A stretch of 47,131 bases of DNA from Pleurocapsales cyanobacterium LEGE 10410. GTDB lineage: Bacteria; Cyanobacteriota; Cyanobacteriia; Cyanobacteriales; Xenococcaceae. Position numbers and translations under genes: made by a program. This document shows positions 24,303-46,147 of this stretch, piece by piece. Position 1 is the stretch's first letter. Each line of letters starts with the position of its first letter. The DNA is taken from NCBI GenBank assembly GCA_015207195.1, contig JADEXJ010000036.1, positions 1 to 47,131 of the forward strand. The letters run 5' to 3'. Under the pieces are notes generated by a model. That model was not told where the DNA came from and made no database searches. It was given only the letters and a program-made list of their open reading frames with translations.

Positions 24303-25295
24303 CTAGACTAAAGCTCCGCCACAGCTCGAACCCGTACCTGCGGTGCAGCCATAGCAATAATTAGCAGTTCTAATTTCTTGAATCACATCCAGGTTATCGA
24401 GTTCCAGAAGTTTGGCTACGGTCAATCTTTCCCGATTTGGCGTGGTCGCTACAATATTTTCCATCTGATTAAAGTCGCAGTCGTAGACGTTACCTAAATA
24501 GTCGATTGATAATTCATTGCGACACATCACGTTGTTTAAAGTAGCGGGGTTGTAATTCTCTGCCAAAAATTGCAGATAATCATCGTGTATATTTTGTCTT
24601 TGTAAGAACTGTTTGGTTCTGCCGATGGGAATATTAGTAATGGTAAATAGATTATTAAATTGAATATCGAAGTGTTCTGCTAAATAGGTTTTATAGTCTC
24701 GTTCTAGCTTTTGTTGATTGGGAGTAAGGGAAAAATTAGTATTAGTAGGCAATGGCGGGTTATATACCAGATCGATAATCAAATTGCGATCGCGTCCGTA
24801 ACCTAACTGGTTGAGATGTTGTATGGCTCGAATCGAATTATTATATACCCCCGCGCCTCTCTGTCGATCTACACTGGTTTCTAAATAACAGGGTAGAGAA
24901 GCACTAACTCTCAACTGATGTCGGGCAAAATATTCAGGTAAATCTTGATAGCTAGGTTCAAAAAAGATCGTCAGGTTGGAACGAACGATAACTTCTTTTT
25001 CCTTGGCTTTGGCTGCTTCGACTATCGGACGAAATCCATAGTTCATTTCTGGCGCACCACCAGTCAGATCGACGGTTTGTATTTGGGGGAAGCGGTTTAT
25101 TAATTCGATTAGCTGCTGACAAACTTCAGCCGATAATTCTTCGGTACGTTTGGGACTTGCTTCTACGTGACAGTGAGTACAGGCAAGGTTGCACTTTCGC
25201 CCTAAATTGATTTGCAAGACAGAGATTTTGTCTTTGGTTAGGGGGGTAACGATTTTTTGGGCAAAGGGAACGAGAGAGGTTTTTACTGGAGACAT
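24303..25295 (-). CDS. arsS: Radical SAM arsenosugar biosynthesis protein ArsS
   Basis: This 330-aa radical SAM enzyme has the [4Fe-4S] motif CNLACTHC (C35, C39, C42), a glycine-rich DLTGGAPEM SAM-binding segment, and a C-terminal Cys-rich tail YCYGCTAGTGSSCGGALV that would bind a second cluster. This combination defines the ArsS/radical SAM-Cys-rich family, which in cyanobacteria attaches the 5'-deoxyadenosyl group to dimethylarsenite on the way to arsenosugars. It lies 137 bp downstream of arsM on the same strand, the usual pairing. Length and motifs are complete. The call relies on remembered family features. Confidence 0.88.
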   Translation of the reverse strand: MSPVKTSLVPFAQKIVTPLTKDKISVLQINLGRKCNLACTHCHVEASPKRTEELSAEVCQQLIELINRFPQIQTVDLTGGAPEMNYGFRPIVEAAKAKEKEVIVRSNLTIFFEPSYQDLPEYFARHQLRVSASLPCYLETSVDRQRGAGVYNNSIRAIQHLNQLGYGRDRNLIIDLVYNPPLPTNTNFSLTPNQQKLERDYKTYLAEHFDIQFNNLFTITNIPIGRTKQFLQRQNIHDDYLQFLAENYNPATLNNVMCRNELSIDYLGNVYDCDFNQMENIVATTPNRERLTVAKLLELDNLDVIQEIRTANYCYGCTAGTGSSCGGALV

Positions 25296-25297
25296 AA

Positions 25298-25352
25298 TTG
25301 ATTATTGATTATTGATTACTAACTCCGAACTACTAACTACTAACTACTAACG
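25298..25352. repeat. Short tandem repeat between arsM and arsS (ATTGATT / ACTAACT units)
   Basis: Units ATTGATT and then CTAACTA repeat several times just upstream of arsS. Such short tandem heptamers are common in cyanobacterial intergenic DNA. They sit where the arsS leader would be; no role is claimed. Confidence 0.6.
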
Positions 25353-25432
25353 ATCGCAGCAAGTTAATTAGCCAAGACAAAATTAACCTACTGCGATCTT
25401 CATGCAGGTAACTTAAAACCCATGATTAATGG

Positions 25433-26638
25433 TTAACAGCATTCCCCAGGGGAACAACAGTCATCATTGCTGGTTTCGGTGAGGTTGTATTCCGAACCTT
25501 TGGTTTCCCTGGCGTGGCGAACGGCTTTGGTTTTGCAGTTGAATTCTGCTGCTTCCTCTAAAGGGATATTTTTATAGGGTTCGATGCCGATAATATCTTT
25601 GCTATAGGGACTACAGCAGCTTGTCATAATGTTGTAGGTTTTATCGCAGACAGCCATTCTTTCTCCGCGACAGAAGACATGACCATCATCGTCTACAACT
25701 TGTTTCCAAGGACCTTTATAGACTACCGACTGCTTTCTTTCTAGGCATACCCCCTCTTTGCCTTTATATGCCCGAACGGTCATGGAACGAAATTCAACGC
25801 CGTCAATTACCTGCCAGGGAGTCTCTTCCCGCTTGAGAATTTCTATCCCGTAAAAACCCGCATCTTCAAACATTTTTAAAAACAGATCTTCTCGAAACGC
25901 CCCAGCAATGCAGCCACTCCACATATCGGGGTCGTTCATGATTTTGGGGGTAGGATCTTCATCGCAGACGATATCAGAAATTACTGCCCTACCGCCACGT
26001 TTAAGAACGCGGAAAATTTCGCTAAATAACTGCTGTTTGTCTTCGGGTCGAACTAAATTTAGGACACAGTTGGAAATTACTACGTCTACGCTGTGGTCAG
26101 CGATTAACGGCTCTTGGTTTTTCAGGCGATCGCATTGTGCTTCGTATTCGCCAATTTTATCCACTGAAGTAATCGGATTGTTTTGCAACCATGCCTGTAG
26201 CTTGTCTAAAGGTAGTTTGAGGTCTTGGATTTTTCCTTTGACAAACTCAGTATTACCATAGCCTAGCTTATCCGCCATTTCTCCCTGATATTTTCTTGCC
26301 AGAGACAGCATTTCGTCGTTAAAGTCCACACCGATAACTTTGCCCGAATCGGCAACTTTTTGCGCCAGAATATAGCAGTTTTTTCCCGCACCAGAACCCA
26401 AATCAACTACTGTTTCACCCTCGTTTACATAGCGAGTCGGATCGCCACAGCCGTAATCTTTAGCAATAATTTCTTCAGGTAAGATCTCGGTATAGTTTCC
26501 TTCATACTCTGTCGGACAACACAAACTAGGCTGTTGTTGTCTTGCCCCTGCCTGATACCTTTCTAATACGGCTGACTCAATATCGTAATCCATAGAAGTT
26601 GATGCGGTTTGCTGTTGGTTTGTTGCCATCTCAGTCAC
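25433..26638 (-). CDS. arsM: Arsenite S-adenosylmethyltransferase ArsM
   Basis: This 401-aa enzyme methylates As(III) stepwise. The SAM site is VVDLGSGAGKNCY (about 77-89). Three cysteines that bind arsenite in known ArsM proteins are placed as expected (C64, C191 in SNCVLNL, C243 in SGCIAG); additional pairs CC at 40-41 and CCSPGECC at the very end may help bind metal or arsenic. The C-terminal extension is typical of the arsenosugar-pathway form. GTG at 26638 or ATG at 26629 could start translation; neither has a decisive ribosome-binding site. It is the first gene of a pair with arsS. No arsR-type regulator is seen nearby. Confidence 0.9.
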   Translation of the reverse strand: MTEMATNQQQTASTSMDYDIESAVLERYQAGARQQQPSLCCPTEYEGNYTEILPEEIIAKDYGCGDPTRYVNEGETVVDLGSGAGKNCYILAQKVADSGKVIGVDFNDEMLSLARKYQGEMADKLGYGNTEFVKGKIQDLKLPLDKLQAWLQNNPITSVDKIGEYEAQCDRLKNQEPLIADHSVDVVISNCVLNLVRPEDKQQLFSEIFRVLKRGGRAVISDIVCDEDPTPKIMNDPDMWSGCIAGAFREDLFLKMFEDAGFYGIEILKREETPWQVIDGVEFRSMTVRAYKGKEGVCLERKQSVVYKGPWKQVVDDDGHVFCRGERMAVCDKTYNIMTSCCSPYSKDIIGIEPYKNIPLEEAAEFNCKTKAVRHARETKGSEYNLTETSNDDCCSPGECC

Positions 26639-28337: not shown

Positions 28338-28499
28338 TTATTGATGCGCGATCGCTTGTTCGATTACAATCGTCTGATGCTTACTGGTTAGAAACTCGCT
28401 GTAATCGGCTATGGTGTCGAGTCCGATTGCGTTTAGCGTTATTTCAGCAACTGTCCAAACTGCAATATTGGCGATTAATTTGTTCCATTTAATTTCCAT
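28338..28499 (-). CDS. 53-aa small protein of the TGCATACC group
   Basis: This short frame runs from ATG at 28499 to TAA at 28338-28340. It has a good Shine-Dalgarno (AGAGGA, 7 bases before ATG). It encodes MEIKWNKLIANIAVWTVAEI followed by a polar segment ending in EQAIAHQ. The first 25 residues could form one hydrophobic helix. It is believed because the shared bipartite upstream element lies at the expected distance and its 3' hairpin abuts the stop codon. Function unknown. A 65-codon frame on the other strand lacks such support. Confidence 0.65.
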   Translation of the reverse strand: MEIKWNKLIANIAVWTVAEITLNAIGLDTIADYSEFLTSKHQTIVIEQAIAHQ

Positions 28500-28518: not shown

Positions 28519-28556
28519 TATAACCTATTTAGTTCTCAAGAGGCAATGGTTATGCA
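28519..28556 (-). promoter_or_regulatory. Shared bipartite element before the 53-aa gene
   Basis: Read on the minus strand: TGCATAACC, 11 bases, AGAACTA, so that the overall 27-base span equals that of the four other copies. The TGCAT block begins 57 bases before the ATG. The third block seen in the other copies is not clear here. Confidence 0.65.
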
Positions 28557-28580
28557 GATTTCCAGCGTGCCTTCAATAGC

Positions 28581-28808
28581 TTACAAATCAGGTTGCCAGG
28601 TTGAATGAGGATTGTAGATAGTTTTGATTGCATCCTGAATACAAGGGGTAGCCAAATTGCGATCCTGCTCGATAGCGATCGCATAGTCTAAATCTGGGGT
28701 AGCCGAGCAAAGTTCGGGAGTAAATTGGGCATTGCTGGGAGCGGAAACTAATACAGCAGATAGTGTCATTAAAGATGTAATGAAAGCTTGGGCATCAACA
28801 AATTTCAT
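28581..28808 (-). CDS. Small secreted protein, 75 aa
   Basis: A signal peptide (about residues 1-28, cleavage near SNAQ) is followed by 47 mature residues with two cysteines (C34, C56) that could form one disulfide. GAGG six bases before ATG supports the start. No family is recognised. It belongs to a run of four small, mostly exported, minus-strand genes that share an upstream element. Confidence 0.7.
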   Translation of the reverse strand: MKFVDAQAFITSLMTLSAVLVSAPSNAQFTPELCSATPDLDYAIAIEQDRNLATPCIQDAIKTIYNPHSTWQPDL

Positions 28809-28838
28809 AATTTACCTCAATATGTTCCTATTTCTGTT

Positions 28839-28876
28839 CTGTAGACTAATAGTTCTGAGGAAAATATAGGTATGCA
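28839..28876 (-). promoter_or_regulatory. Shared bipartite element before the 75-aa gene
   Basis: On the minus strand: TGCATACC, 12 bases, AGAACTA, 4 bases, TCTACA. TGCATACC begins 68 bases before the ATG. This copy and the one at 34346 are the closest to consensus. Confidence 0.75.
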
Positions 28877-28996
28877 AAACTATAGAGCAATCTTATTTGG
28901 GAATGGAGAGGTGGGGGTTACGAACGTCATTTTATTTGTCTTTTGTCGTTAGTCATCAGAAGAACTGCTTCTTATTGGGCTGGGAACGCAAACATC

Positions 28997-29028
28997 AAAA
29001 AAACTTCATGCCCTGGTAGAACATGAAG
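28997..29028 (-). terminator. Rho-independent terminator of the 84-aa gene
   Basis: On the minus strand CTTCATG and CATGAAG form a 7-bp stem, followed at once by seven T (28997-29003). It lies 38 bp after the stop codon of the 84-aa secreted protein gene. Confidence 0.8.
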
Positions 29029-29066
29029 CAATAAATTGGCTAGACTCAGATACGATAAAATTATTG

Positions 29067-29321
29067 TTATTGATCTAGTTGCGTTTGTCTGTTACCTCCC
29101 TGATGATAATAGTAACCAGATGAACCAGAAGGACTCATACTACAGGTAACGTTGCCATAGCTATCGACATAAGCATTGTTATATAGCAAGCAGTGCGAGG
29201 TATCGTAGACTTCGCCAGTATGGGGATTGATTCCTGTTTGAGCCGAAGCTGGTTTAACACCTGATGCGATCGCGCCTAAAGATACTAGAGTTAGGATTGC
29301 TGTAGTTTTGATTGATTTCAT
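29067..29321 (-). CDS. Small secreted protein, 84 aa
   Basis: The signal peptide (about 1-27, cleavage after KPASAQ) precedes a mature part rich in Tyr, Asn, Ser and Gly with two cysteines (HC and TC) and a Gly-Tyr-rich end (SGYYYHQGG). Such low-complexity Tyr/Gly tails are common in surface-associated proteins. It has the shared upstream element and its own terminator, so it is a monocistronic member of the set. Confidence 0.72.
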   Translation of the reverse strand: MKSIKTTAILTLVSLGAIASGVKPASAQTGINPHTGEVYDTSHCLLYNNAYVDSYGNVTCSMSPSGSSGYYYHQGGNRQTQLDQ

Positions 29322-29348
29322 GATTCGTATTGGTTGGTAGTTGTTAAT

Positions 29349-29385
29349 TGTAGTTATTTATTGCTGGAGAAGATTGGGGTATGCA
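29349..29385 (-). promoter_or_regulatory. Shared bipartite element before the 84-aa gene
   Basis: On the minus strand: TGCATACC, 12 bases, AGCAATA (a variant of AGAACTA), 4 bases, ACTACA. It begins 64 bases before the ATG. Confidence 0.65.
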
Positions 29386-29388
29386 GAA

Positions 29389-29685
29389 TTAGTTGCCCCA
29401 AATCAGGTCGAGATTTTGCTGGTGTCTTCCATCCATATCATTGATTCTTTCTTGATAAGCCTCATAACTCAAACCATAATTTTGAGTCGGATAGGCTGTA
29501 GTTCCAGCTGTAGGATAAGTAGGAAAAGTTTGACTGGAAGGATATGAAGAATATGCAGGAGTTTGAGTTACTGGATTACCATATTCTGTATTGTTAGTGT
29601 TAGAGAAGCTAGCGATCGCCATAATTCCCAAGACACCAAATAAGACTTTCTTGTTGGTGGTTTTAAAATTGAAAAGGTTTTTCAT
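29389..29685 (-). CDS. Small exported Tyr/Pro/Thr-rich protein, 98 aa
   Basis: A hydrophobic segment (about residues 12-28, KVLFGVLGIMAIASFS) acts as signal peptide or membrane anchor. It is followed by a Pro/Tyr/Ser/Thr-rich stretch (residues 35-72, PVTQTPAYSSYPSSQTFPTY) and a short charged end, AYQERINDMDGRHQQN. AGGAAG seven bases before ATG fixes the start. No family is recognised. The composition suggests a disordered surface or wall-associated protein. Confidence 0.68.
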   Translation of the reverse strand: MKNLFNFKTTNKKVLFGVLGIMAIASFSNTNNTEYGNPVTQTPAYSSYPSSQTFPTYPTAGTTAYPTQNYGLSYEAYQERINDMDGRHQQNLDLIWGN

Positions 29686-29720
29686 GGTCGTTCTTCCTAT
29701 TAGAGCGGTTTTGTTTGCTG

Positions 29721-29758
29721 TTGTAGTAACCTATTTCTGAGATGAGGTGAGGTATGCA
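29721..29758 (-). promoter_or_regulatory. Shared bipartite element before the 98-aa gene
   Basis: On the minus strand: TGCATACC, 12 bases, AGAAATA, 4 bases, ACTACA. It begins 73 bases before the ATG. Confidence 0.7.
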
Positions 29759-29833
29759 TTTGTCAAAGCAAAGATTAATCAGTTCCTAAGTCTCTAAGTC
29801 AGCCCAAACCATCTCATGATGATGCACCGTCAA

Positions 29834-30535
29834 TTAGGCATTATTCTTGGTGCAGAGATACTGCTTGATGTCTGCTACTTTATTGCTTAGAGAGGGCGAA
29901 GGATTTTCGACTGACTGTAGTTGTTGGAGAGCATCGGACCACAGTTGTCGATTGATAAAATAATCTGCTTTGGCGATCGCCAGAGCTTCGGCGGTGGCAT
30001 TTTCTCCCTGTAGCTGGGTTTCGATAGCGGTTAATTCGGTGGCGATCGCTTCACGTTCTGTCTGTTCCATCAACTTAAAGGTGATGGGTTCGTAGGTTTT
30101 GTCTGCTTTACTAAATACCCAGTCGTAAACAAATCCTGGCTGTAATTGTTCTCCTGCATAGGCGAGAGTTGTGGTATTGGGCGAGATGGTTTCTGTCCAG
30201 ATTAGCTCTCCGTCTTGTTCGTAATTGTAGTTGGCAGGGGAGCTATATAAATCAATTTTTGCTTGAGGTATAGTACCGTACATAATGAACGACGGGCGAT
30301 CGCTCCAAACAGTTTGTTCGCCTAGATTGCCTGGAGATACAAAACAGACTTCTCCCCTGGTAATTAGGCTATTTTCGGGAGATTTGAACAGACTGACAAT
30401 TCTTTCGAGGAGCGAACTAGACTTGCGCTCTGGGGCAGTCGCTCTGATTTCTCGAGCGTTAACTGCCAGTGGGAAAACGCAGCATGTGATTAAAGCAGAA
30501 CTAAGCAATAGCTTAAACAGATTTGAATTACGCAT
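29834..30535 (-). CDS. DUF928 family exported protein
   Basis: This 233-aa protein has a signal peptide (1-27, ending VNAREI). The mature part fits DUF928: CFVSPG, then WSDRPSFIMYG, a beta-sandwich-like region with FVYDWVFSKA, and a C-terminal helical repeat (about 165-225, AIAKADYFINRQLWSDALQQ) that looks TPR-like. Its start codon lies inside the last codons of the CHAT-CHASE2 gene (8-bp ATGCGTAA overlap), which indicates translational coupling. DUF928 proteins often travel with CHASE2-CHAT and DUF1822 genes in cyanobacteria; the function is unknown, but a periplasmic sensor partner of CHASE2 is a fair guess. Confidence 0.85.
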   Translation of the reverse strand: MRNSNLFKLLLSSALITCCVFPLAVNAREIRATAPERKSSSLLERIVSLFKSPENSLITRGEVCFVSPGNLGEQTVWSDRPSFIMYGTIPQAKIDLYSSPANYNYEQDGELIWTETISPNTTTLAYAGEQLQPGFVYDWVFSKADKTYEPITFKLMEQTEREAIATELTAIETQLQGENATAEALAIAKADYFINRQLWSDALQQLQSVENPSPSLSNKVADIKQYLCTKNNA

Positions 30536-32909
30536 GATTTTTGTTAATTGACGGTAGTATGTAAGCCCAAATAGCTACGGATGGCAGCAGCCAGGGAATT
30601 AAAATAGCTCCAGAAATATATAGTTGTAGTCCTACTAAACCATAAATAATTGTAGTACCCAGCATCAGCATTAAGATCGAGCGAGGCTTAATAGTTCGTT
30701 TTGCCAAACCGAGTTTAATTCCCTTGGCAATCAATAGGGCAGTCAATACCATTCCTAGTTCGGGAATTGGTATGACTAGACGACGCTCTAAAAAATGATG
30801 TGTCATGTATGCCAAAAACTCGGAGCCTGTGAAGGGTGTCCCATTAAGGTCTAGCCGTCTTTCGGGCTGCCAATAACCAACCGCCGAAGGAGTCGCAAAA
30901 TTATCGGACCCCTGAGTCAATCCTGCTTCGCTATATCCCCCCGAACCAATAATGATTATCTGCTGACTAAAATCGGCTTGATCGCCTGATAAAAGCTGCC
31001 AGGCAGGTAGACGGTTGTACACCAGATTGGGCGGTAGGGAAAAATCTTCAATCGGACGCAGCCACTGTTGACCGAGATACTGCACCACTTTGGTTAGAGG
31101 AGAAAGTTTGGTTTGCCTAAAAAATTCGTATTGGGGACGATCTTTGAGATAGGCATACAGGGAGTTACGTAAATTAGCTTGACTTTTAATTTGAGGCGAT
31201 GGGAAAGCTGAATCTTGAGCAACCGCTTGAGTTGCTGCCAACAAATAGGCAAAAGGACAGGCGCGATCGCAATTCTCCGACGACGGTAGACTTAGATACA
31301 GATGGGGTAAACTGTCGGTGGTATATCCCTGCAAAGTCCAGTTGGGGCTGGCGATGCCCGTTTGGGGGGTGACTCCCAGTTCCGTTCCGTCTAGTTGTTT
31401 GACTGCACCAAAAATAAACCAGGTTTGATTTTGCGCGACGGCATCTTGCACCGAACGAGCTAGTATTGAGTCGTTGTTGGGTTGAGGGCGATCCAATAGA
31501 TAGTCGATGCCAATAATTTTGGCATCCGCAGCCACCAGGCGATCGATTAGGCTTGCTAGATAACGGCGATTCATGGGTACGGGGCGTTCGATTCCCGCTT
31601 TGGTCAATGACTGTTCGTCGATGTGTACTATGGTTACTGGAGCTTTGGTCGTCGGGATCTGTCCCGTTACATCTCGATAAATCGCCTGTGCCAGGGTTCG
31701 CTTATCTAATAGATAATTCTGTAGCGGAGGGAAAATACTCAACAGACAGAGAGTGCTGGCGATCATCGCCTCGGTGCGGGTAGGCAACCATTTTTTGACC
31801 CGTTGCTTCCAGCCCCAAGGTTCGATCCGAAATAGCTTGGCTTCGGGATGACAAAACAGGGAAGGAACTAAATAAGCCGAAGGATAGGTTAAGTTCTGCT
31901 CTTGTTTGAGATGTTGCTCGGCACTGGTCAAAGCCTGCTGCACGTTTTGATGGTTTGCCAGAGCCTGGAGAAACTGAATCAGAAAGACTTGAGCCACCTG
32001 ATTGTGGATCGGCTCTCGCATTACCGCCACTTGGTTTAACCCCAAATCGATTAAGGAGTTGGCAATACTCAAACCACTACAGGAATTAAATAAAGCAAAC
32101 TGCAAGCCATTAGTTAGGGCAATCTTTAACTGCTTGGCAATTTCGCCGATTGAAAGAGCAATTTTCGGCGCGATCGCCAGTTCACCTCCCGTAATCGCCG
32201 TTTCGTTGCTGTGTCCTGCAAAAAACAAGACTGACCAGCCTTGAGGATCGCTCAGTGCTGTTTGAATCTGCCGTTTGATTGACGCTGCTGGCTGCTGGGG
32301 TTGCCAGGTAACTATTACTATTTCGGCTACCTGCTGGAGAAAGTTAAGCGAATCGCGATCGCCCTTTAAGTCCAGTCCCGTATCGTCGCCCAAGATCGCC
32401 AAAATACGGGGTTTGCCAGAGCGTCTGGAAGTATTGTTGGGGTTAGTAATATGACGCGGGCTACGAGCGATCGCTACCTCACGACCAAATTCTGCCCCCA
32501 GTTCCCAGGTTTCCCAGGGCAGTCTTTCTAGTTCCCCACTACAGGTTAGAAACAAACTAATTTTGGTGCGTTCTGGGCTGCCTTCACTGGCAATTTTCGC
32601 CCTAATTTCGTATAGTTCTGCTCGTCGTAGCCAACGGTGAAATTCTAGCAACAACTGAGCTTCTGCCTGGACTAACTGGCGATGCCAATCTTTCCGCAGA
32701 CTGATTTCACCGCGATCGTTTTTGGGTTGGCGTACTCTGGCTCTAAGTGCCGTTTTATAGAAGTTTAAATAGGCGTTACGCCATGTCTGATATAGCTGAG
32801 ATAGTGTATCGGGATAGGGCAAAATCGTTGAGGTTTGCTGTCCTTTGCCCCAGGTTAGTTTAAAAAGACAGGTACGCTCTATTCGCTGGATTTCTAGCTG
32901 GAATTTCAT
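30528..32909 (-). CDS. CHAT protease-like domain fused to CHASE2 sensor
   Basis: This is a 793-aa protein if it starts at ATG 32909 (an in-frame TTG at 32918 is less likely). Residues 1-360 are a CHAT domain, a caspase-like peptidase: the catalytic dyad is intact as H233 in LFFAGHS and C277 in FNSCSG. A transmembrane helix at about 381-400 leads to a periplasmic CHASE2 sensor domain (about 400-690, with VTIVHIDEQS, IIGIDYLLDRP and IIIIGSGG). Two to three C-terminal transmembrane helices (about 700-785) close the protein. The likely logic is an outside signal controlling a cytosolic protease. It is the second gene of a three-gene operon. Confidence 0.9.
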   Translation of the reverse strand: MKFQLEIQRIERTCLFKLTWGKGQQTSTILPYPDTLSQLYQTWRNAYLNFYKTALRARVRQPKNDRGEISLRKDWHRQLVQAEAQLLLEFHRWLRRAELYEIRAKIASEGSPERTKISLFLTCSGELERLPWETWELGAEFGREVAIARSPRHITNPNNTSRRSGKPRILAILGDDTGLDLKGDRDSLNFLQQVAEIVIVTWQPQQPAASIKRQIQTALSDPQGWSVLFFAGHSNETAITGGELAIAPKIALSIGEIAKQLKIALTNGLQFALFNSCSGLSIANSLIDLGLNQVAVMREPIHNQVAQVFLIQFLQALANHQNVQQALTSAEQHLKQEQNLTYPSAYLVPSLFCHPEAKLFRIEPWGWKQRVKKWLPTRTEAMIASTLCLLSIFPPLQNYLLDKRTLAQAIYRDVTGQIPTTKAPVTIVHIDEQSLTKAGIERPVPMNRRYLASLIDRLVAADAKIIGIDYLLDRPQPNNDSILARSVQDAVAQNQTWFIFGAVKQLDGTELGVTPQTGIASPNWTLQGYTTDSLPHLYLSLPSSENCDRACPFAYLLAATQAVAQDSAFPSPQIKSQANLRNSLYAYLKDRPQYEFFRQTKLSPLTKVVQYLGQQWLRPIEDFSLPPNLVYNRLPAWQLLSGDQADFSQQIIIIGSGGYSEAGLTQGSDNFATPSAVGYWQPERRLDLNGTPFTGSEFLAYMTHHFLERRLVIPIPELGMVLTALLIAKGIKLGLAKRTIKPRSILMLMLGTTIIYGLVGLQLYISGAILIPWLLPSVAIWAYILPSINKNHA

Positions 32910-32969
32910 TGCGAACAATTAATAGTTTGAAGCTTTTAGCTTTTAGCTTTATTTCTGGTCAATTCCTTA

Positions 32970-34316
32970 TTAATTAAAAGCAAAACTGGGGAATGTAAAA
33001 GTCGTACCATCGGTCAAAATAACCCTGACGCTAAACTGTTCTTCTAGTTCGCCAATTGCCTGAATGTAAATATAAGAGTCTGCCGTGTCTTCGGCAACCA
33101 GCCTGTCATCTAGCACCGTATCACCTTCGGCTAATTCCAACTTTAACCCTTGGGGTAGATAATTATTTGGTTTGGCACCCAACACCAGCAGCAGAGTCCA
33201 TTCGGGCGTTCCTGGGGTTTCTTCAATCTCCCAAGTAACTGCAAACAAGCGTAGTTCGTGGTTAGCCAGATTAAAGTCCTGACAGGCTCCACGAGCAGTT
33301 TCGGGAATCTCTTCACCGCTGTCTCTTAGCTGAGTGATAATTGCTTCAAATTCTTCAGCAGGAGTTTCTCGGCTCACAACCTGTAGATCCCGTAGACCAC
33401 TCGGAGCAAGTGCAGGGGCGGGTAACAGCGTCCAGGCAAGATTCTGTGCCAGTTCGTCTAATTCGTTAGATAACCAAGATTTGACGTTAATTGCACTTTG
33501 AGTAACTTCAGCAACAGCGGTGTTGAGGCGATCGCGCAATCCTGCCAAAGCGGTTCTCGGAGTCGGTTGAGTTGTCTGTAGCTCATAAAGCCAGTCGAGT
33601 AGCTCGGGGTTGCTGAGAATTGGGGCTGCTTGCGACCAATTTAATACTTCCTGTAGAGCTGCACCAGACTGTAACCGAGGAATTAAAGGTTCTAGCTGGC
33701 TGAGGATATTATCGGCTGCTGTTGTCGTCGCAGGGATGGGGATAACGCTCGGCGACAAACATCTTAGACACAACAATAGATCGTCAGGTGGGGTGTTAAA
33801 CCAAACCCAAGGTATTTGATAAGTCCAGTCTGCATCGGCAGTCAGATTAACGGTTTGTTTGCGTCTAATAATTTCTTCATAGCTAATAAAACGCTCGATA
33901 CTGACTTCGGCTTGTTCTTCTACCACATTGACCAAAACATAAAAATGTGAGGCATATTCTGGAAGATCGATTACGGCACGGTCAATCGCGATCGCCTCAT
34001 CAAACACTACACCATTAGTTAACAAACAGATCTTGTATTCACCGACGGTTAGATTAAAAACTCCATCAATATAGTTAGCATAGCTCGGCTGCATCACCGA
34101 GCAGTTGGCATCATCAATCACTAAAGAATCATCTCTTTCCGCCAACCAGGTTTCAAAACCAAACAAAGCCAGAGCGTTGAGGTATGTCTGCCATTGCCGT
34201 TCGGAATCGAGCAGGCGATCGCTCAGTTCGACGGCACGATCTACCTGTGCGGAAGATAGCTCGATCCCCGTTTCCAAGAATGATTCAAATTCTAGTGCCA
34301 GATTATAGTTAGTCAT
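32970..34316 (-). CDS. DUF1822 family protein
   Basis: This 448-aa, acidic, soluble protein opens with the typical DUF1822 segment (LALEFESFLETGIELS then ALFGFETWLAERD), a beta-rich N-terminal half and a Pro/Leu-rich helical middle (about 200-300). There is no enzyme motif. It is the first gene of the operon, 60 bp before the CHAT-CHASE2 gene, and carries the shared bipartite element 67 bases before its ATG. Cyanobacterial DUF1822 genes commonly sit next to CHASE2-CHAT genes; the biochemical role is unknown. It might be the target of the CHAT protease. Confidence 0.85.
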   Translation of the reverse strand: MTNYNLALEFESFLETGIELSSAQVDRAVELSDRLLDSERQWQTYLNALALFGFETWLAERDDSLVIDDANCSVMQPSYANYIDGVFNLTVGEYKICLLTNGVVFDEAIAIDRAVIDLPEYASHFYVLVNVVEEQAEVSIERFISYEEIIRRKQTVNLTADADWTYQIPWVWFNTPPDDLLLCLRCLSPSVIPIPATTTAADNILSQLEPLIPRLQSGAALQEVLNWSQAAPILSNPELLDWLYELQTTQPTPRTALAGLRDRLNTAVAEVTQSAINVKSWLSNELDELAQNLAWTLLPAPALAPSGLRDLQVVSRETPAEEFEAIITQLRDSGEEIPETARGACQDFNLANHELRLFAVTWEIEETPGTPEWTLLLVLGAKPNNYLPQGLKLELAEGDTVLDDRLVAEDTADSYIYIQAIGELEEQFSVRVILTDGTTFTFPSFAFN

Positions 34317-34345
34317 AATAGTTTTTTTAATTAGTTCAACTCAGC

Positions 34346-34383
34346 TTGTAGATTCTTAGTTCTCAAAGCTGTCGGGGTATGCA
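34346..34383 (-). promoter_or_regulatory. Shared bipartite element before the DUF1822-CHAT-DUF928 operon
   Basis: On the minus strand: TGCATACC, 12 bases, AGAACTA, 4 bases, TCTACA. It begins 67 bases before the DUF1822 ATG and just downstream of the sigma-like gene stop, so the operon has its own start rather than only read-through. Confidence 0.75.
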
Positions 34384-34408: not shown

Positions 34409-35800
34409 TTAATGGTAACGGTCGAGATAAGCGCAAATCCGCTGGGCTAAAATACTTTGGGTGCTATCGGCAATGCTAACTTCTTTTTCTGCTTCATCCA
34501 GCACCAGATCTATTTGCTCTCCCAAAGCCTTCTCGATCTCTTGCTCTCTTTGTTTTAATGATTCAAAATCGCTCAATTTTATCTGAGTCAACGTCCAGTT
34601 GCGCATCGATCGCAACATACTGTGGCGAATGTCTGCTCTTAGTTCTTTTAGCTTGAGCAACCGTGTTACCTGATACTGCGCCTGTAAATCAATTTTTGGC
34701 GCGATCGCACTCATCGATTCTCCTTGACAGTGAAATAATTCTAGGGCGGTGGTAAACTGCGGTGCTTTGGCTGCTTTTTTACCCTTAAACTTCCTCAAGC
34801 GAGTGGTAATCACCTCCTCGATCGAGCTATCTAAGCTTTGTTGAAACTGTTGTTGGTAAGACTGGAGAAAACTGCTACGCTCTTCACTATCATCTGCTTC
34901 ATTACTCACCACCGCAGCCTGCATCCCTTCCGTATTTTTCGCTGCATTGTCCAAAGACTCTTGTTTCATTCTGCCTCCCCGAACCTGAATCCGATACTCT
35001 CGAAGCTGTTCGGCTAAAAGCTCTAGCCGTGACAGGGTTTGTGATGGCGATAAAACTAAATCCTGTTGCTCGATTAGGGCGGAAATTCTAGTTAACTGTT
35101 CGGCGGTAGGTGTTTGACACTTGCCCCCCTTTCCCTGGCGATTCTTGAGGCGATCGCGACGATATACCGCATGATAACCAGCAAGTAATATTTGAGCTTG
35201 TTCGATCTCCGTCGGTGTCAGGTTATGAAACTCCGACAGGATTCGGGCAACCTGCTTGGTGTTAGTATCGTTCAAGATTGCCCAGTTGCTGATAAAATAA
35301 ACTCCCTGCTCCAATAAAAAACGCTGGAGTTCGCGATTTTGCTTAACGTACCTGGAAGTCCAAGTGGCAAGATTGGCTTTTTTCGGCTCGAAAGTCTCTA
35401 GAATTTCTACCGCTAAAGGCTTATATCTACTCTTAGTTGCTGAAGAATGTCTTACAGAATGGCGATCGTCTAAAGTATCGTTAAGAGTGTAAATAAAAAG
35501 GTCGTTACGACTAAAGCCATGTTCTCTACCAAACTGCATATCTAATTGAATGCAGACTTGTCTAATCTGATGGGAGATAAAGCAACGCAAACATCTTTCT
35601 GCTTTGATGCCTGTCTCTTGGTAGCTGTTCTTTGCCACCATTAAATCGCTTTGAATTGAAACATCCGTGACGTTTTCATCGTCGCTGGTACAGGGAAATT
35701 GCTCTTGAAAAAAATTTTTTGCCTGACTTATTTCCGTTATTTTAATCTTTCCCGAACTGTCAAGTCTGACTAAATTCCAATATTTAGATGCTGTTCTCAT
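34409..35800 (-). CDS. Divergent sigma-70-like protein
   Basis: This 463-aa protein starts at ATG 35800. Residues 66-190 look like sigma region 2: the helix AERCLRCFISHQIRQVC, then LATWTSRYVKQNRELQRFLL and GVYFISNWAILNDT, equivalent to the promoter-melting and -10-reading segment. A linker of 150 residues follows, with low-complexity Glu/Ser and Lys/Ala stretches. Residues 349-395 (ALELFHCQGESMSAIAPKID then QYQVTRLLKLKELRADI) form a region 4-like helix-turn-helix. Canonical sigma factors are not this spread out, so it is a lineage-specific type and the call is moderate. It is directly upstream of the operon and small genes that share one promoter-like element, which it may recognise. Confidence 0.7.
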   Translation of the reverse strand: MRTASKYWNLVRLDSSGKIKITEISQAKNFFQEQFPCTSDDENVTDVSIQSDLMVAKNSYQETGIKAERCLRCFISHQIRQVCIQLDMQFGREHGFSRNDLFIYTLNDTLDDRHSVRHSSATKSRYKPLAVEILETFEPKKANLATWTSRYVKQNRELQRFLLEQGVYFISNWAILNDTNTKQVARILSEFHNLTPTEIEQAQILLAGYHAVYRRDRLKNRQGKGGKCQTPTAEQLTRISALIEQQDLVLSPSQTLSRLELLAEQLREYRIQVRGGRMKQESLDNAAKNTEGMQAAVVSNEADDSEERSSFLQSYQQQFQQSLDSSIEEVITTRLRKFKGKKAAKAPQFTTALELFHCQGESMSAIAPKIDLQAQYQVTRLLKLKELRADIRHSMLRSMRNWTLTQIKLSDFESLKQREQEIEKALGEQIDLVLDEAEKEVSIADSTQSILAQRICAYLDRYH

Positions 35801-41293: not shown

Positions 41294-44200
41294 ATGTGTC
41301 CTCGCGCTAAACGCCGTGAAAGAGCAACTTCCCAATCTACACCAACTAAACTCTGGATTCTGTTGGTAGGAGTCAATCAATACTACGATCGCCGTAATTT
41401 ACCCTCGCTTCAGTATTCGGCAGTAGACTGTCAGGGTTTGGGGTCAGCATTAAAAGAGGCGACGGCTAGCTTCTCAAACAAGGAAGTTATCATTCATCAC
41501 GATTTTGCCAGCCAGCATCCACATCAAGCAGAAGTTCGGCAAAGCATACAACATATTGTTAGTGCTGCTTGTCCTGGAGATACGATTCTGTTTTATTTTT
41601 CAGGACATGGTATTCTCGACCCCAAGACGCAACAGGTAGTCTTGTGTTTGGCGGATACGGATACTAAACAACTGTTAACTACGGGTATACCCTTGAATCC
41701 CCTATTGAAACAGTTGAGTAATTGTGCAGCAACTCAGCAGTTAGTCTGGCTAGATGCTTGTCATAGTGGGGGAATGACTTTATTAGGTACATCGAAGATA
41801 TCTCTGCCAAATCCTAGTTCCCGATTAGTGGAAGTTTTGCGCCACCAGGCTGCGGAAAGTAAAGGTTTTTATGCCTTGTTGTCCTGCGATCGCACTCAAC
41901 AATCGTGGGAGTTTCCTGAATTGGGACACGGGGTATTTACCTATTATTTGATGCGGGGTTTGCGAGGGGAAGCTGCCGATAGTCAGGGAATAATCGAAGC
42001 GGATGCTTTATATCAATATGTTTATCATCAAACCCTACAGTATATCGATCAAACCAATCAACAGATTCGCTTAATCAATCAGCAAAAAAGCAGTAAGGGA
42101 GAAACCAAACTACAAGCCGAATTTCCTTTGCAGACTCCTAAACGGATTGTCGAAGGATTTGGGAAAGTTGTTTTAGGAGTTAGGAAGTCGTACGGTAGCC
42201 AAGAAGTCAATCCCCGCCAGGCGTTAGTCATCGATGGTGGTTTGAAAGGTAATCGGACAACCCTAGCTTTGAGTAAATTGTTACAAAGTGCGGGAAAGTT
42301 TGATTTAAGATATTTTCCGCAGACTAATGAACCTTGGTCACGAGTAAAACAGGCGATCGCCACTTGTTTGAATTCTCAAGGTAATACTAGCGATCCAGAA
42401 ATTACTACTGCTTTACTCTACTTACGGGGGCAAATTGAGCCTACCGATACGGGGGAATCTTGGCTAGTCTTACAGGATGGGATGCGTTTATCTCGTTCTT
42501 GGTTGAGAAAAGTTCTCAGGGATTCTCGCGCCGTTCGACAAATAGTTATTTTAGACTGTCCTGGAGAAAATTCTTTAACAGATTGGGTAGAAGACTTGCA
42601 GCTATCAACCGAACGTGGACAGTGTTTGATTGCTGCTAACGCCCCAGTCGCTAATTCTCAGCAGTTTACAGAGGCAGTATTAGAAACCCTGCAAAACGCT
42701 GATTCTAAAGGAGGATTACCTATTGCAGCCTGGATTACTCAGCTACAGATTGCTTTAGCAGGAAAAATTATTCCCCAGGTTTGGCTATCGGGTACTCAGG
42801 GGGTAATAGAAATACTGACTGCTAAAAATGGAGTCGAGGAAGATCGGCAGCCAGTTTTAGATCTGGGGATCTGTCCCTATATGGGTTTACAGGCTTTTAA
42901 GGTCGATAGTGCGGAATATTTTTATGGTCGAGAAGCTTTAGTTCAAAGGCTATTGAACCAAATTAATCATCAATCTAGTCTGGCAGTGGTTGGTGCTTCT
43001 GGTAGCGGTAAATCTTCGGCGATCCAGGCGGGATTGATCGCCCAGTTAAGACAGGGTAAACAAATTCCCCAGAGCGATCGCTGGTGCGTCAGTTATGTTC
43101 GTCCTGGGAGTAAACCCGTTCGGGCTTTGGCAAAATCGTTGGTTATTTCTGAAGGCGAGGAAGCACTGCAAGTTGAGGGATTGCTCTATCAAGGGGTAGA
43201 AGGGTTCGTTTACTGGCTGCGGGCGCGCCCCGAACCGATGGTGTTGTTAATCGTCGATCAGTTTGAAGAACTGTTTACCCTGGCAGGAGAGAGTGAACGT
43301 CAGGAGTTTCTAAAATTAATTTTGGGTGCGATTAAATATGCGGGCGATCGCTTTAAATTTATTTTGTCAATTAGAGCGGATTTTGTGGCTTCTTGTTTGG
43401 AAATAGCCGAATTAGCCGACATTTTGCAGACAAATAGTGTTTTAGTACCGCCCTATCTTACAGCAGCGGATTATCGTAGTGCGATCGCTAAACCTGCCGA
43501 ACAGGTAGGCTTGGAAGTTGAATCGGGTTTAGTAGAATTATTACTCCAGGATTTAGATCGTTCCGCAGGCAATTTGCCCCTGTTACAGTTTGCTTTGCAA
43601 CAACTATGGGAACGTCGGGAGAATGGTAAATTAACCCTCAAAGCCTATCAACAGTTGGGGGGAATTAAAGGCGCATTAGAAAGACAGGCACAGGCAGTAT
43701 ACGACAGCCTTGATTCTGAAACTCAGGCTTGTGTGCGCTGGATTTTTCTCAATCTAACTCAGTTAGGAGAAGGGACAGAAGATACTCGCCGACGCATTAC
43801 CAAGTCCGATCTGGTGGTAGCTAAATATCCAGAGGCGAAAGTCAATCAAACTCTCCGCATCCTAACCGATGCCAAGCTATTGGTAGTTGACTTAGATCAT
43901 GTTAGCAACATTGGGCAAAGCCGTGAGGCGAATATTTCCTCAGAGGGTGATGGGCTATGTTTAGCAGCAATGCACCAAGAGGCGACGGTAGAAGTCGTTC
44001 ACGAAATTTTGATTCGGCATTGGTCGAGTTTACGCTGGTGGATTGAGGAAAATAGAAGTAGATTGCGATCGCAACGGCAGATCGAACAAGCAGCAGTATT
44101 ATGGCTACAAAAAGAACGACAGCCCGATTTTATGTTGCGGGGTATTCGTTTAGCCGAGGCGGAAGAAATATATACTAAATACACCGATGAGCTATCCGAC

Positions 44201-46147
44201 ACTGCTATAGAATTTGTCGCCACCTGTATCGATGCCAGAGTTGCCGAACAAAAAGCAACTACCAGACGCTTGCACCAAGCACGGTTAACCGCCACGGCAT
44301 TGGGTATTTTGGGTTTGGCTGCCTCTGCTTTTGGGGTTACTGCCTATCGCCAGCAGCTAATTACGCGAATTGAAAATATAGACGGTTTGAATGCCGTTGC
44401 CGAAGCACAACTATTATCTAATCGGCAGTTGGAATCTCTGACTACCAGCCTCAAAGCAGGAAAACAACTAAAACAGCTCAATCGTTTGGCTCAAGCCTTA
44501 GTCGGTCGGGATAGTTGGCAAGGAACTAAAGCTAAAACTACCGCCACCCTGCAACAGTCTATCTACGGTACTCAAGAGCTAAATCGCCTTGAAGGTCACA
44601 GTCAAAAAGTCAATGCTGTTAGCGTGAGTGATGATGGTGAATTATTTGCCACGGCTGGTGATGACCGCACTGTTAAAATTTGGCAAAAAGACGGCAGTTT
44701 AATAGAAACTTTACCAAAAAAAGCAACCAAAGTAAATCTGGCTTTCGATCTTGATGGCACTAAGCGACAAATTAATAATCCGCTCGATGTAGAACCAAAG
44801 AATATCGCTACTAACCAAGATGCTGATTTAGTTGCTGTAGATGATGAGGGAATGGTGCAGTTGCGATCGCCCTCTGGCAATTCTTTAGTTACCTATCCTC
44901 ACCCCGAACCTGTAAATAGTGTCAATATCAGTCCCGATGGCAAGTTAGTCGCTACCGCCACCCTAGAGGGTATTTATATTTGGAGTCGGGATGGTATTTT
45001 GCAACAGAATTTAAAGGGGCATACGGGAGAAGTGACGGATGTTGAGTTTATTCAAGAGCAACCAAGCGATTACCCTTCGGGCTTGTCCTCGAATGAAGGT
45101 ACGCTTAGCGATCGCTATAAATTAATTTCTACTGGAGTCGATAAAACCGTCAGAATTTGGCAAGTCTTTGCTCGCTATACAAATAATGAAAGTATTTACA
45201 CTGTTGCAGCTAACCCAACCTCTAATACCTTCGCTACTGCGGGTTCAGATGGCGAAATTAAAGTTTGGCGCAATCAGCTTAATGGCACACCAGAACTAAT
45301 CCGTACTCTATCAGGACATCAGGATACTGTTTCGCAAATTAAATATAGTCCCGATGGTCAATTGATGGCTTCTGCAAGTTGGGATAAAACCATCAAGCTT
45401 TGGGATAGGTCAACAGGCAAGTTAATCGATACCCTAAAACACGAACAGGGAGTCAACACTATTGCTTTTAGTTCAGATAGTCAAATTTTAGTTACTGGTA
45501 GCGAAGATACAACAGTCAAGCTGTGGAGTTTGGATAATAAGCCAGAATTGATTAAAACTTTAACTGGACATACCGATAGTATTAAAGCTGTTACCGTTAG
45601 TCCAGATGGACAGTTAATTGCATCTGCTGGTTATGACAATACGATCAAACTGTGGAATATTACAGGAGAACTATTACAAACTATCGATGCACACAATTTA
45701 GCTATTACTTCCTTAGCTTTTACTCCAGACAGCAAAACCCTAGCCTCTGGAAGTTGGGACAATACAATAAAACTTTGGCAAATAGAAGATGCGGGAACAA
45801 CCAGCCAGTTATCCCATACTTTAATAGGACATCAAGACGGCATCACTACCCTCAGCTTTAATTCCAATGGTACAGTGTTAGCGACAGGAAGTGGCGATCG
45901 CCTGATTAAACTTTGGCATCCTCAAACAGGAGAATTAATTAAGAACCTGCGGGGACACACCAGCCAGATCAATAGCTTGGCTTTTGGTAGGGAAGATCGA
46001 TCTATGGTTAGCGCGGAAGAACAACAGGGATTGTTTCAGTGGAATCTAGACTTGGATCATCTTTTAACTCAAGGATGCGATCGCCTGTCTGACTATCTAG
46101 CTACTAATCCTAATCTCAAACCAAGCGAACAAAAACTTTGTCAATAA
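41294..46147 (+). CDS. Caspase-like peptidase - nSTAND ATPase - WD40 protein
   Basis: This is a 1617-aa protein. Residues 15-270 are a C14 caspase domain with a complete dyad, H105 in FSGHG and C156 in LDACHSGG. Residues 310-510 look like a second, degenerate caspase-like unit (TTALLYLRGQIEP and IVILDCPGEN). The nSTAND ATPase (about 525-960) has PYMGLQAF, a GASGSGKSS P-loop near 568 and Walker B MVLLIVDQFEELF. A hydrophobic helix near 1000-1018 is followed by 10-11 WD40 repeats (about 1096-1590) and the characteristic tail CDRLSDYL. This is a sensor-switch-protease layout of bacterial regulated cell death or conflict systems: WD40 senses, ATPase oligomerises, caspase cuts. The ribosome-binding site is weak. 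Confidence 0.9.
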   Translation: MCPRAKRRERATSQSTPTKLWILLVGVNQYYDRRNLPSLQYSAVDCQGLGSALKEATASFSNKEVIIHHDFASQHPHQAEVRQSIQHIVSAACPGDTILFYFSGHGILDPKTQQVVLCLADTDTKQLLTTGIPLNPLLKQLSNCAATQQLVWLDACHSGGMTLLGTSKISLPNPSSRLVEVLRHQAAESKGFYALLSCDRTQQSWEFPELGHGVFTYYLMRGLRGEAADSQGIIEADALYQYVYHQTLQYIDQTNQQIRLINQQKSSKGETKLQAEFPLQTPKRIVEGFGKVVLGVRKSYGSQEVNPRQALVIDGGLKGNRTTLALSKLLQSAGKFDLRYFPQTNEPWSRVKQAIATCLNSQGNTSDPEITTALLYLRGQIEPTDTGESWLVLQDGMRLSRSWLRKVLRDSRAVRQIVILDCPGENSLTDWVEDLQLSTERGQCLIAANAPVANSQQFTEAVLETLQNADSKGGLPIAAWITQLQIALAGKIIPQVWLSGTQGVIEILTAKNGVEEDRQPVLDLGICPYMGLQAFKVDSAEYFYGREALVQRLLNQINHQSSLAVVGASGSGKSSAIQAGLIAQLRQGKQIPQSDRWCVSYVRPGSKPVRALAKSLVISEGEEALQVEGLLYQGVEGFVYWLRARPEPMVLLIVDQFEELFTLAGESERQEFLKLILGAIKYAGDRFKFILSIRADFVASCLEIAELADILQTNSVLVPPYLTAADYRSAIAKPAEQVGLEVESGLVELLLQDLDRSAGNLPLLQFALQQLWERRENGKLTLKAYQQLGGIKGALERQAQAVYDSLDSETQACVRWIFLNLTQLGEGTEDTRRRITKSDLVVAKYPEAKVNQTLRILTDAKLLVVDLDHVSNIGQSREANISSEGDGLCLAAMHQEATVEVVHEILIRHWSSLRWWIEENRSRLRSQRQIEQAAVLWLQKERQPDFMLRGIRLAEAEEIYTKYTDELSDTAIEFVATCIDARVAEQKATTRRLHQARLTATALGILGLAASAFGVTAYRQQLITRIENIDGLNAVAEAQLLSNRQLESLTTSLKAGKQLKQLNRLAQALVGRDSWQGTKAKTTATLQQSIYGTQELNRLEGHSQKVNAVSVSDDGELFATAGDDRTVKIWQKDGSLIETLPKKATKVNLAFDLDGTKRQINNPLDVEPKNIATNQDADLVAVDDEGMVQLRSPSGNSLVTYPHPEPVNSVNISPDGKLVATATLEGIYIWSRDGILQQNLKGHTGEVTDVEFIQEQPSDYPSGLSSNEGTLSDRYKLISTGVDKTVRIWQVFARYTNNESIYTVAANPTSNTFATAGSDGEIKVWRNQLNGTPELIRTLSGHQDTVSQIKYSPDGQLMASASWDKTIKLWDRSTGKLIDTLKHEQGVNTIAFSSDSQILVTGSEDTTVKLWSLDNKPELIKTLTGHTDSIKAVTVSPDGQLIASAGYDNTIKLWNITGELLQTIDAHNLAITSLAFTPDSKTLASGSWDNTIKLWQIEDAGTTSQLSHTLIGHQDGITTLSFNSNGTVLATGSGDRLIKLWHPQTGELIKNLRGHTSQINSLAFGREDRSMVSAEEQQGLFQWNLDLDHLLTQGCDRLSDYLATNPNLKPSEQKLCQ

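Follow-up and report, generated by a model that had tools for sequence, protein, structure and literature searches.

A two-box promoter-like element accompanying a candidate divergent sigma factor and a DUF1822-CHAT/CHASE2 operon in cyanobacteria

Introduction

The stretch of DNA considered here (the window, 47,131 nucleotides (nt), contig JADEXJ010000036.1 of Pleurocapsales cyanobacterium LEGE 10410) carries on its minus strand five copies of a two-box element, TGCATA-N14-AGMAMTA, each ahead of one of five gene or operon starts. One of these starts belongs to an operon for a DUF1822 protein, a CHAT (caspase-like)-CHASE2 protein and a DUF928-like protein; directly upstream of it lies the open reading frame (ORF) of a 463-amino-acid (aa) protein of a family here called P464; from the stop of this ORF to promoter copy 1 there are 25 bases.

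Multicellular cyanobacteria are rich in bacterial caspase and CHAT proteins, and to our knowledge how they are switched on is largely unknown. Autoregulated sigma factors of the ECF (group 4) type recognise a two-box promoter, classically the pair GGAAC/CGTC, target their own operon and are encoded alongside a membrane sensor; promoters of the SigA type follow the scheme TTGACA-17-TATAAT.

The Element and the Genes behind It in the Window

The five copies stand where an earlier note, made from the letters of the window alone, had placed them: on the minus strand, with 67, 73, 64, 68, and 57 bases between the T of TGCATA (at 34383, 29758, 29385, 28876, and 28556, respectively) and the ATG, that is, within the 57-73 bases claimed. 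The literal form proposed for them, TGCATACC-N(10-14)-AGAACTA, fits only two of the five copies, with none expected from 100 shuffles; three copies have AGAACTA as their second box, the copy at 29758 has AGAAATA, and that at 29385 has AGCAATA. Likewise, the supposed inserted base with a compensating shorter spacer in the copy at 28556 (TGCATAACC) resolves into a plain TGCATA with an unchanged 14-base gap; in other genomes TGCATA is followed by A more often than by any other base (55 of 77 sites). The further motif described as usual, T/ACTACA, is present as CTACA slightly downstream of the second box in four copies and missing from one.

When both strands of the window were scanned with a matrix built from 68 sites, all of them of other genomes, the five copies occupied exactly the top five ranks, with 15.3-23.4 bits, and the next-best site reached 6.7 bits, in agreement with the remark that there are no further copies; over 40 first-order Markov windows the same matrix gave a mean maximum of 7.7 bits and a largest value of 14.2. 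Because a matrix made from foreign sites ranks the five copies first, the element is real and is independently predicted by other genomes.

As to the genes (Table 1), the "membrane protease sensor" announced for this locus suits the 796 aa protein with its Pfam CHAT and CHASE2 domains, in which the His and Cys of the catalytic dyad are recognised by eye; its ORF has an in-frame ATG at 32909, and the approximately 95 residues preceding the CHAT match have no Pfam match, no EACC2 model having been searched. The small proteins had been called exported: by eye, those of 84 and 75 aa carry Sec-type leaders, that of 98 aa has a hydrophobic N-terminus, and that of 53 aa shows no leader; the 98 aa protein has no Pfam or NCBIfam match.

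Table 1: Features of the window discussed in the text; leaders and N-termini were judged by eye.
Feature	Position	Strand	Remarks
463 aa protein (P464 family)	34409..35800	-	candidate divergent sigma-70-type factor; ATG at 35800, TTG one codon earlier
DUF1822 protein, 448 aa	32970..34316	-	Pfam PF08852, E 2.5e-45
CHAT (caspase-like)-CHASE2 protein, 796 aa from TTG	30528..32918	-	Pfam CHASE2 E 6.7e-18, CHAT E 7.9e-12
DUF928-like protein, 233 aa	29834..30535	-	Pfam DUF928 E 0.0012, below its cut-off
98 aa small protein	29389..29685	-	hydrophobic N-terminus; behind copy 2
84 aa small protein	29067..29321	-	Sec-type leader; behind copy 3
75 aa small protein	28581..28808	-	Sec-type leader; behind copy 4
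53 aa small protein	28338..28499	-	no obvious leader; behind copy 5
Promoter copy 1	34346..34383	-	TGCATA-N14-AGAACTA, then CTACAA; before DUF1822-CHAT/CHASE2-DUF928; 21.0 bits
Promoter copy 2	29721..29758	-	second box AGAAATA; before 98 aa gene; 23.4 bits
Promoter copy 3	29348..29385	-	second box AGCAATA; before 84 aa gene; 22.8 bits
Promoter copy 4	28839..28876	-	before 75 aa gene; 15.3 bits
Promoter copy 5	28519..28556	-	TGCATAACC form, N14 kept; before 53 aa gene; 22.8 bits

Copies Elsewhere in the Same Genome

In the whole genome (6.64 Mb, 392 contigs) the pattern TGCATANC-N13-GARNTA has ten exact matches. With one mismatch allowed, 48 matches are obtained against 39 for the reversed pattern, that is, mostly background; for this reason the examination was restricted to the ten exact matches plus copy 3, the other 37 one-mismatch matches being left out. 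Nine of these 11 sites stand ahead of a codirectional ORF, whose ATG lies 30-54 nt past the end of the second box. The regulon suspected earlier is upheld by the same scan, since four of the nine good sites lie outside the window, on contigs C123 and C314, 48-54 nt before small or RTX-type ORFs: those on C123 precede a protein of 207 aa that by eye is of the RTX type and another of 177 aa, those on C314 precede proteins of 89 aa and 84 aa with Sec-type leaders (by eye), the latter resembling the 84 aa protein of the window. The two remaining exact matches, one with no gene behind it (C123:47101) and one inside an opposite-strand ORF (C392:56123), look like chance or decay. A sequence-only model made from 31 foreign sites gave nine matches at E<=10 in this genome, five of which coincide with good sites, the four top-ranking matches among them. 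Four of the nine good sites were missed; the first look of this model scored 150 of 2276 candidates only.

Distribution of P464 and of the Element among Cyanobacteria

Of 195 genomes from the order, 58 contain a P464 match, that of the window among them. From a scan of named genomes, the best 80 of 177 P464 relatives were kept, all of them in records named for cyanobacteria, and their neighbourhood is largely that of the window: by tblastn, a DUF1822 homologue lies directly downstream of P464 at 75 of the 79 loci with at least 1.2 kb, and among the 58 loci with at least 5.5 kb a CHAT-CHASE2 homologue follows within 8 kb in 51 and a DUF928 homologue in 43. P464 relatives are also carried by 18 plasmid records, 16 of which call the protein "hypothetical protein", the other two being unannotated at the match; on a plasmid of Nostoc sp. 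HK-01 (AP018320.1, typed mobilizable) the operon comes with several TPR genes and a C14 caspase.

The element follows this family across genomes. In the regions of up to 400 nt before each of the 80 homologues, the pattern GCATA-N14-nGAnnTA is found at 40 loci, compared with 3 for the reverse strand and 0.15 for shuffled sequence; with a leave-one-locus-out matrix, in which only the tested locus was removed and near relatives stayed in, a site of at least 10 bits lies upstream of P464 at 57 of the 80 loci, against 10 on the reverse strand, and some of these 10 may be promoters of divergent genes. Upstream sites with high scores are those of Calothrix brevissima NIES-22 (L076, 38.5 bits) and Calothrix parasitica NIES-267 (L063, 40.0 bits), both of them culturable strains.

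A wider scan, covering the 195 genomes with TGCATAMS-N12-AGARNTA and using the reversed pattern as a control, gave 149 sites against 21. The excess lies in the 22 genomes with a close P464 relative (E<=1e-85), which hold 125 sites (control 1); the 16 genomes with a distant P464 hold 2 (control 2) and the 137 without any P464 hold 17 (control 13). At least two sites are present in 18 of the 22 and in 1 of the 137 (Fisher 5.6e-19, which is not a true probability, the genomes being related), and these 18 multi-site genomes span 14 genera and 7 families. Among the genomes searched, then, the element is frequent only in those with a close P464 relative. A genome without a P464 match that has three sites (G028) possesses, some 1.1 kb away from one of its sites, a P464 fragment of 53 residues (L300, G028:C235) and is possibly a case of a decaying regulon; no P464 remnants were found in G002, G074, and G048, which have one site each and no P464 match.

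The consensus of 77 sites reads aaaac-TGCATA-AS, followed by a free spacer whose last bases are Y-S, then AGARnTA and, after another 8-11 bases, an ATRR-like stretch. Its seed positions follow from the way in which the sites were selected; this does not apply to the A-rich stretch, to the pair of bases just ahead of the second box, or to the stretch behind that box. Between offsets 11 and 16 the spacer is unconserved, at no more than 0.14 bits.

Genes behind the Sites in Other Genomes

The downstream genes were surveyed in eight genomes that had been picked for having sites (73 in all) and include some close kin; five sites of G101 were left out, as were those that lay close to the end of a locus, contained N or had no ORF of at least 45 aa, and 65 distinct sites were kept. 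At 52 of these the longest downstream ORF begins within 116 nt, a distance that is approximate because ATG, GTG, and TTG were taken as starts. TPR repeats occur in 22 of 55 scanned downstream ORFs of at least 130 aa, and among 21 hand-picked ORFs there are six TPR-CHAT proteins, four C14 caspases whose leader by eye resembles the twin-arginine type, and single cases of AAA_35, protein kinase, subtilase, DUF3160-LRR, phosphodiester glycosidase, and LAGLIDADG, five having no match; CHAT is undercounted here, since the 1.5 kb flank truncated a large number of ORFs. By eye, sites also stand ahead of P464 itself, of DUF1822, and of ABC transporters.

A matrix that was not left-one-out gave 128 sites of at least 16 bits over the 80 named loci; 56 of them lie upstream of P464 and 7 between P464 and the next gene. 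At four of these loci (L072, L099, L103, and L112) sites precede large exported proteins that by eye resemble adhesins of the filamentous-haemagglutinin type.

P464 as a Candidate Sigma Factor

Identification of the 463 aa protein through Pfam or NCBIfam failed, no sigma match standing above the cut-off of either collection; this failure of the profiles is a detection limit and not a biological feature. The connection to sigma factors leads instead through a related intermediate family of about 415 aa, members of which adjoin a DUF1822-like gene at three loci (L208-L210, by eye; further members, L220-L249) and there keep weak Sigma70_r2 matches (E 1.4e-5 to 6.5e-5). Compared by hhalign in two directions, with E-values that refer to single pairs and carry no database correction, P464 matches the 415 aa family at E 3e-13 / 2e-14 over 277-287 columns, and this family in turn matches ECF region 4 at E 1e-11 / 8e-11 over 60 columns and sigma-70 at E 1e-4 / 3e-4 over 187 columns; DUF1822, used as a negative control against P464 and the 415 aa family, gives E 0.09-0.26.

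The AlphaFold2 model of the 463 aa protein has a mean pLDDT of 85.5 and a pTM of 0.58, and when the full-length model was compared with the PDB by Foldseek, sigma subunits made up 14 of the 16 best matches, chain F being taken as sigma by convention. A sequence search of the PDB with a 22-row P464 profile gave no sigma match, its best hit (E 0.028) being a chain called DMAP6. The 463 aa protein is therefore regarded as a candidate divergent sigma factor, linked to sigma factors by profile comparison and only via the intermediate family.

The 415 aa relatives share with P464 a homologous sequence and, at L208-L210, the DUF1822-like neighbour; they differ from it in keeping, at these loci, the weak Sigma70_r2 match and in that the promoter pattern does not rise above background where they occur on their own: 34 genomes that have a strong 415 aa homologue and lack a close P464 (E<=1e-80) hold 4 sites (control 5). 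The 415 aa family, a further group that merits a name, is matched at E<=0.001 in 80 out of 148 genomes, remote and partial matches included.

A Possible Alternative-Sigma Promoter and Its Regulon

The existence of the element, the set of genomes that carry it, its conservation, orientation and spacing, and its co-occurrence with P464 can be read at the level of sequence. Two unlike boxes, a fixed gap, a single direction, and a distance of 30-54 nt to the ATG fit the -35 and -10 boxes of a sigma factor, and the element is probably the core promoter of an alternative sigma factor that would be the upstream 463 aa protein itself, serving its own operon and a scattered regulon. Of the two readings first offered, "an RNA polymerase or dimer-bound site," the polymerase is favoured by the difference between the boxes and by the codirectional ATG of 9 of the 11 sites; a palindromic or dimer operator was rejected by eye, without a search for repeats, as the two boxes are unlike and show no complementarity.

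In the mechanism proposed, the -35 box would be approximately TGCATA and the -10 box approximately AGARNTA, with 14 bases between them and a transcription start near the YTACAR stretch, and the 463 aa factor would steer RNA polymerase to its own operon and to the scattered regulon. The latter would consist in this genome of small, mostly exported proteins together with an RTX-type protein, and in other cyanobacteria of TPR-CHAT proteins, C14 caspases, and other, often exported, proteins. At the majority of loci the promoter stands ahead of the sigma-like gene, which would give rise to positive feedback; in the window and at L036, L037, and L040 it lies between the P464 gene and DUF1822 and not upstream of both, a placement that would uncouple the factor from its own feedback. 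The CHAT/CHASE2 and DUF1822 proteins might control the factor in answer to some signal, for example by proteolysis of an anti-sigma partner, which is a guess from the structure of the operon.

Several results weigh against this interpretation. No site of at least 10 bits was found at 23 of the 80 loci; the 20 genomes with a middling P464 (E 1e-85 to 1e-50) hold 5 sites, exactly as many as the control; the cut at 1e-85 was picked after the table of sites was known; and of the genomes with a close P464, three (G020, G039, and G051) have no site and one (G005) has a single site. As regards the protein, no sigma family of Pfam appears at E<=0.01 among the 80 P464 members, Sigma70_r4_2 appears at E 0.017 in one of 22 members and the NCBIfam sigma70-ECF model at E 5.7e-4 in one of the 80; P464 and sigma factors, when their profiles are compared directly, give no significant match (probability 1.6-4.2%), and the step from the 415 aa family to sigma-70 has a probability of 41-57% only. 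In Foldseek no match to the full-length model reaches E 0.001 (the best is 0.044) and the TM-scores are low; for a sub-domain model (residues 60-224) the best match is a SigmaS complex at E 3. Because the direct sigma match fails and the Foldseek E-values are weak, P464 is called here a candidate and not a proven sigma factor.

The co-occurrence of element and family, and the sites upstream of the P464 gene, would fit equally well if the 463 aa protein were a sequence-specific activator or co-factor acting on the element, with the promoter itself recognised by another sigma factor, and the lack of a significant direct match between P464 and sigma factors agrees with this; such an arrangement is nevertheless judged unlikely, in view of the profile link through the 415 aa family and the ranking of the structural matches, and because the unlike boxes with their fixed gap and short distance to the ATG in this genome leave little space for a separate downstream promoter. 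Ordinary promoters of the SigA type combined with an activator box, independent of the neighbouring gene, could be suggested by the A/T-rich stretch in and after the second box; yet the 77-site consensus contains no TTGACA/TATAAT and the sites are at background in genomes without P464, which makes this alternative very unlikely, and a SigA promoter as such is ruled out by the box sequences of that consensus.

It is likewise very unlikely that the element acts after transcription, as an RNA leader and not as a DNA promoter: it does stand 5' of an ATG at 9 of the 11 matches in the genome, but the boxes are not mutually complementary (by eye), the gap is fixed in length and free in sequence, and an A-rich stretch precedes the first box. 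The least credible explanation, with a very low probability in our estimate, is that the copies are repeated DNA, spread by local duplication or by a mobile element carrying small genes. Their clustering and the look-alike of the 84 aa protein behind a copy on C314 would be expected from it; the unconserved spacer and the differing downstream proteins are not, and on these grounds a duplicated repeat was rejected.

If the alternative-sigma reading is followed further, it is possible, and proposed here only tentatively, that an unrecognised cyanobacterial sigma family switches on caspase/CHAT protease systems and secreted proteins from a sigma-CHAT/CHASE2-DUF1822 signalling operon. Were this so, the promoter code would allow the effectors that a genome has for cell death or conflict to be read off its sequence; with a promoter tied to one sigma-like protein, candidate effectors could be listed genome by genome, and the whole chain could be addressed through a single gene.

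Relation to Known Systems

As far as the sequence shows, P464 resembles the ECF (group 4) sigma factors in its putative two-box promoter, in having its own operon among the predicted targets, and in the membrane sensor encoded alongside; it differs from them in being about twice the usual size, in the failure of direct sigma profiles, and in boxes unlike GGAAC/CGTC. An alternative-sigma regulon is already known as a type of system; new here would be the promoter code, a candidate sigma family missed by standard profiles, and the caspase-type targets.

The gene neighbourhood is not new either: a paper of 2021 noted, in the passages concerned, DUF1822 beside a caspase-type CHASE2 protein and a sigma-like gene, and proposed that the sigma factor mediates the transcription of many genes (PMC8195603). 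Two parts of this EACC2-caspase/DUF1822/ECF sigma neighbourhood are present in the window, namely, DUF1822 adjoining a sigma-like gene and a caspase-type domain with CHASE2. The published account differs in that the word "promoter" is absent from its main text and that those passages name no target genes; from them, its sigma-like gene may equally be P464, the 415 aa family or both. The "undescribed regulon" of the earlier note must accordingly be qualified: the neighbourhood had been described in those passages, while no description of the promoter, the regulon or the P464 family was found in the literature searched, which mostly excludes subscription journals; the parts consulted of two further papers (PMC12691664 and PMC9679502) contain nothing bearing on the promoter or on the P464 family.

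Since the P464 family escapes the standard sigma profiles, censuses of sigma factors based on profiles should undercount. A phylum-wide census of cyanobacterial sigma-70 homologues published in BMC Genomics in 2024 comprises 4,193 of them and admitted only proteins in which one or more Pfam sigma domains exceeded the threshold (PMC11119718); as the 80 P464 members have none at E<=0.01, that method should miss P464.

Other Genes of the Window

The window also contains, on the plus strand, a second caspase-type gene besides that of the CHAT operon: positions 41294-46147 encode a protein of 1617 aa with, by eye, a caspase domain, an NTPase, and WD40 repeats, before which the matrix scan of the window found no copy of the element. 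Between 11602 and 16913, also on the plus strand, lies a cluster that resembles, by eye, a pathway for a modified peptide, with a 760 aa YcaO/cyclodehydratase-like protein, a possible precursor of 166 aa, and two tandem amidohydrolase-like genes that share long near-identical stretches; on the minus strand, at 24303-26638, a radical-SAM-like gene adjoins an arsenite-methyltransferase-like gene (by eye).

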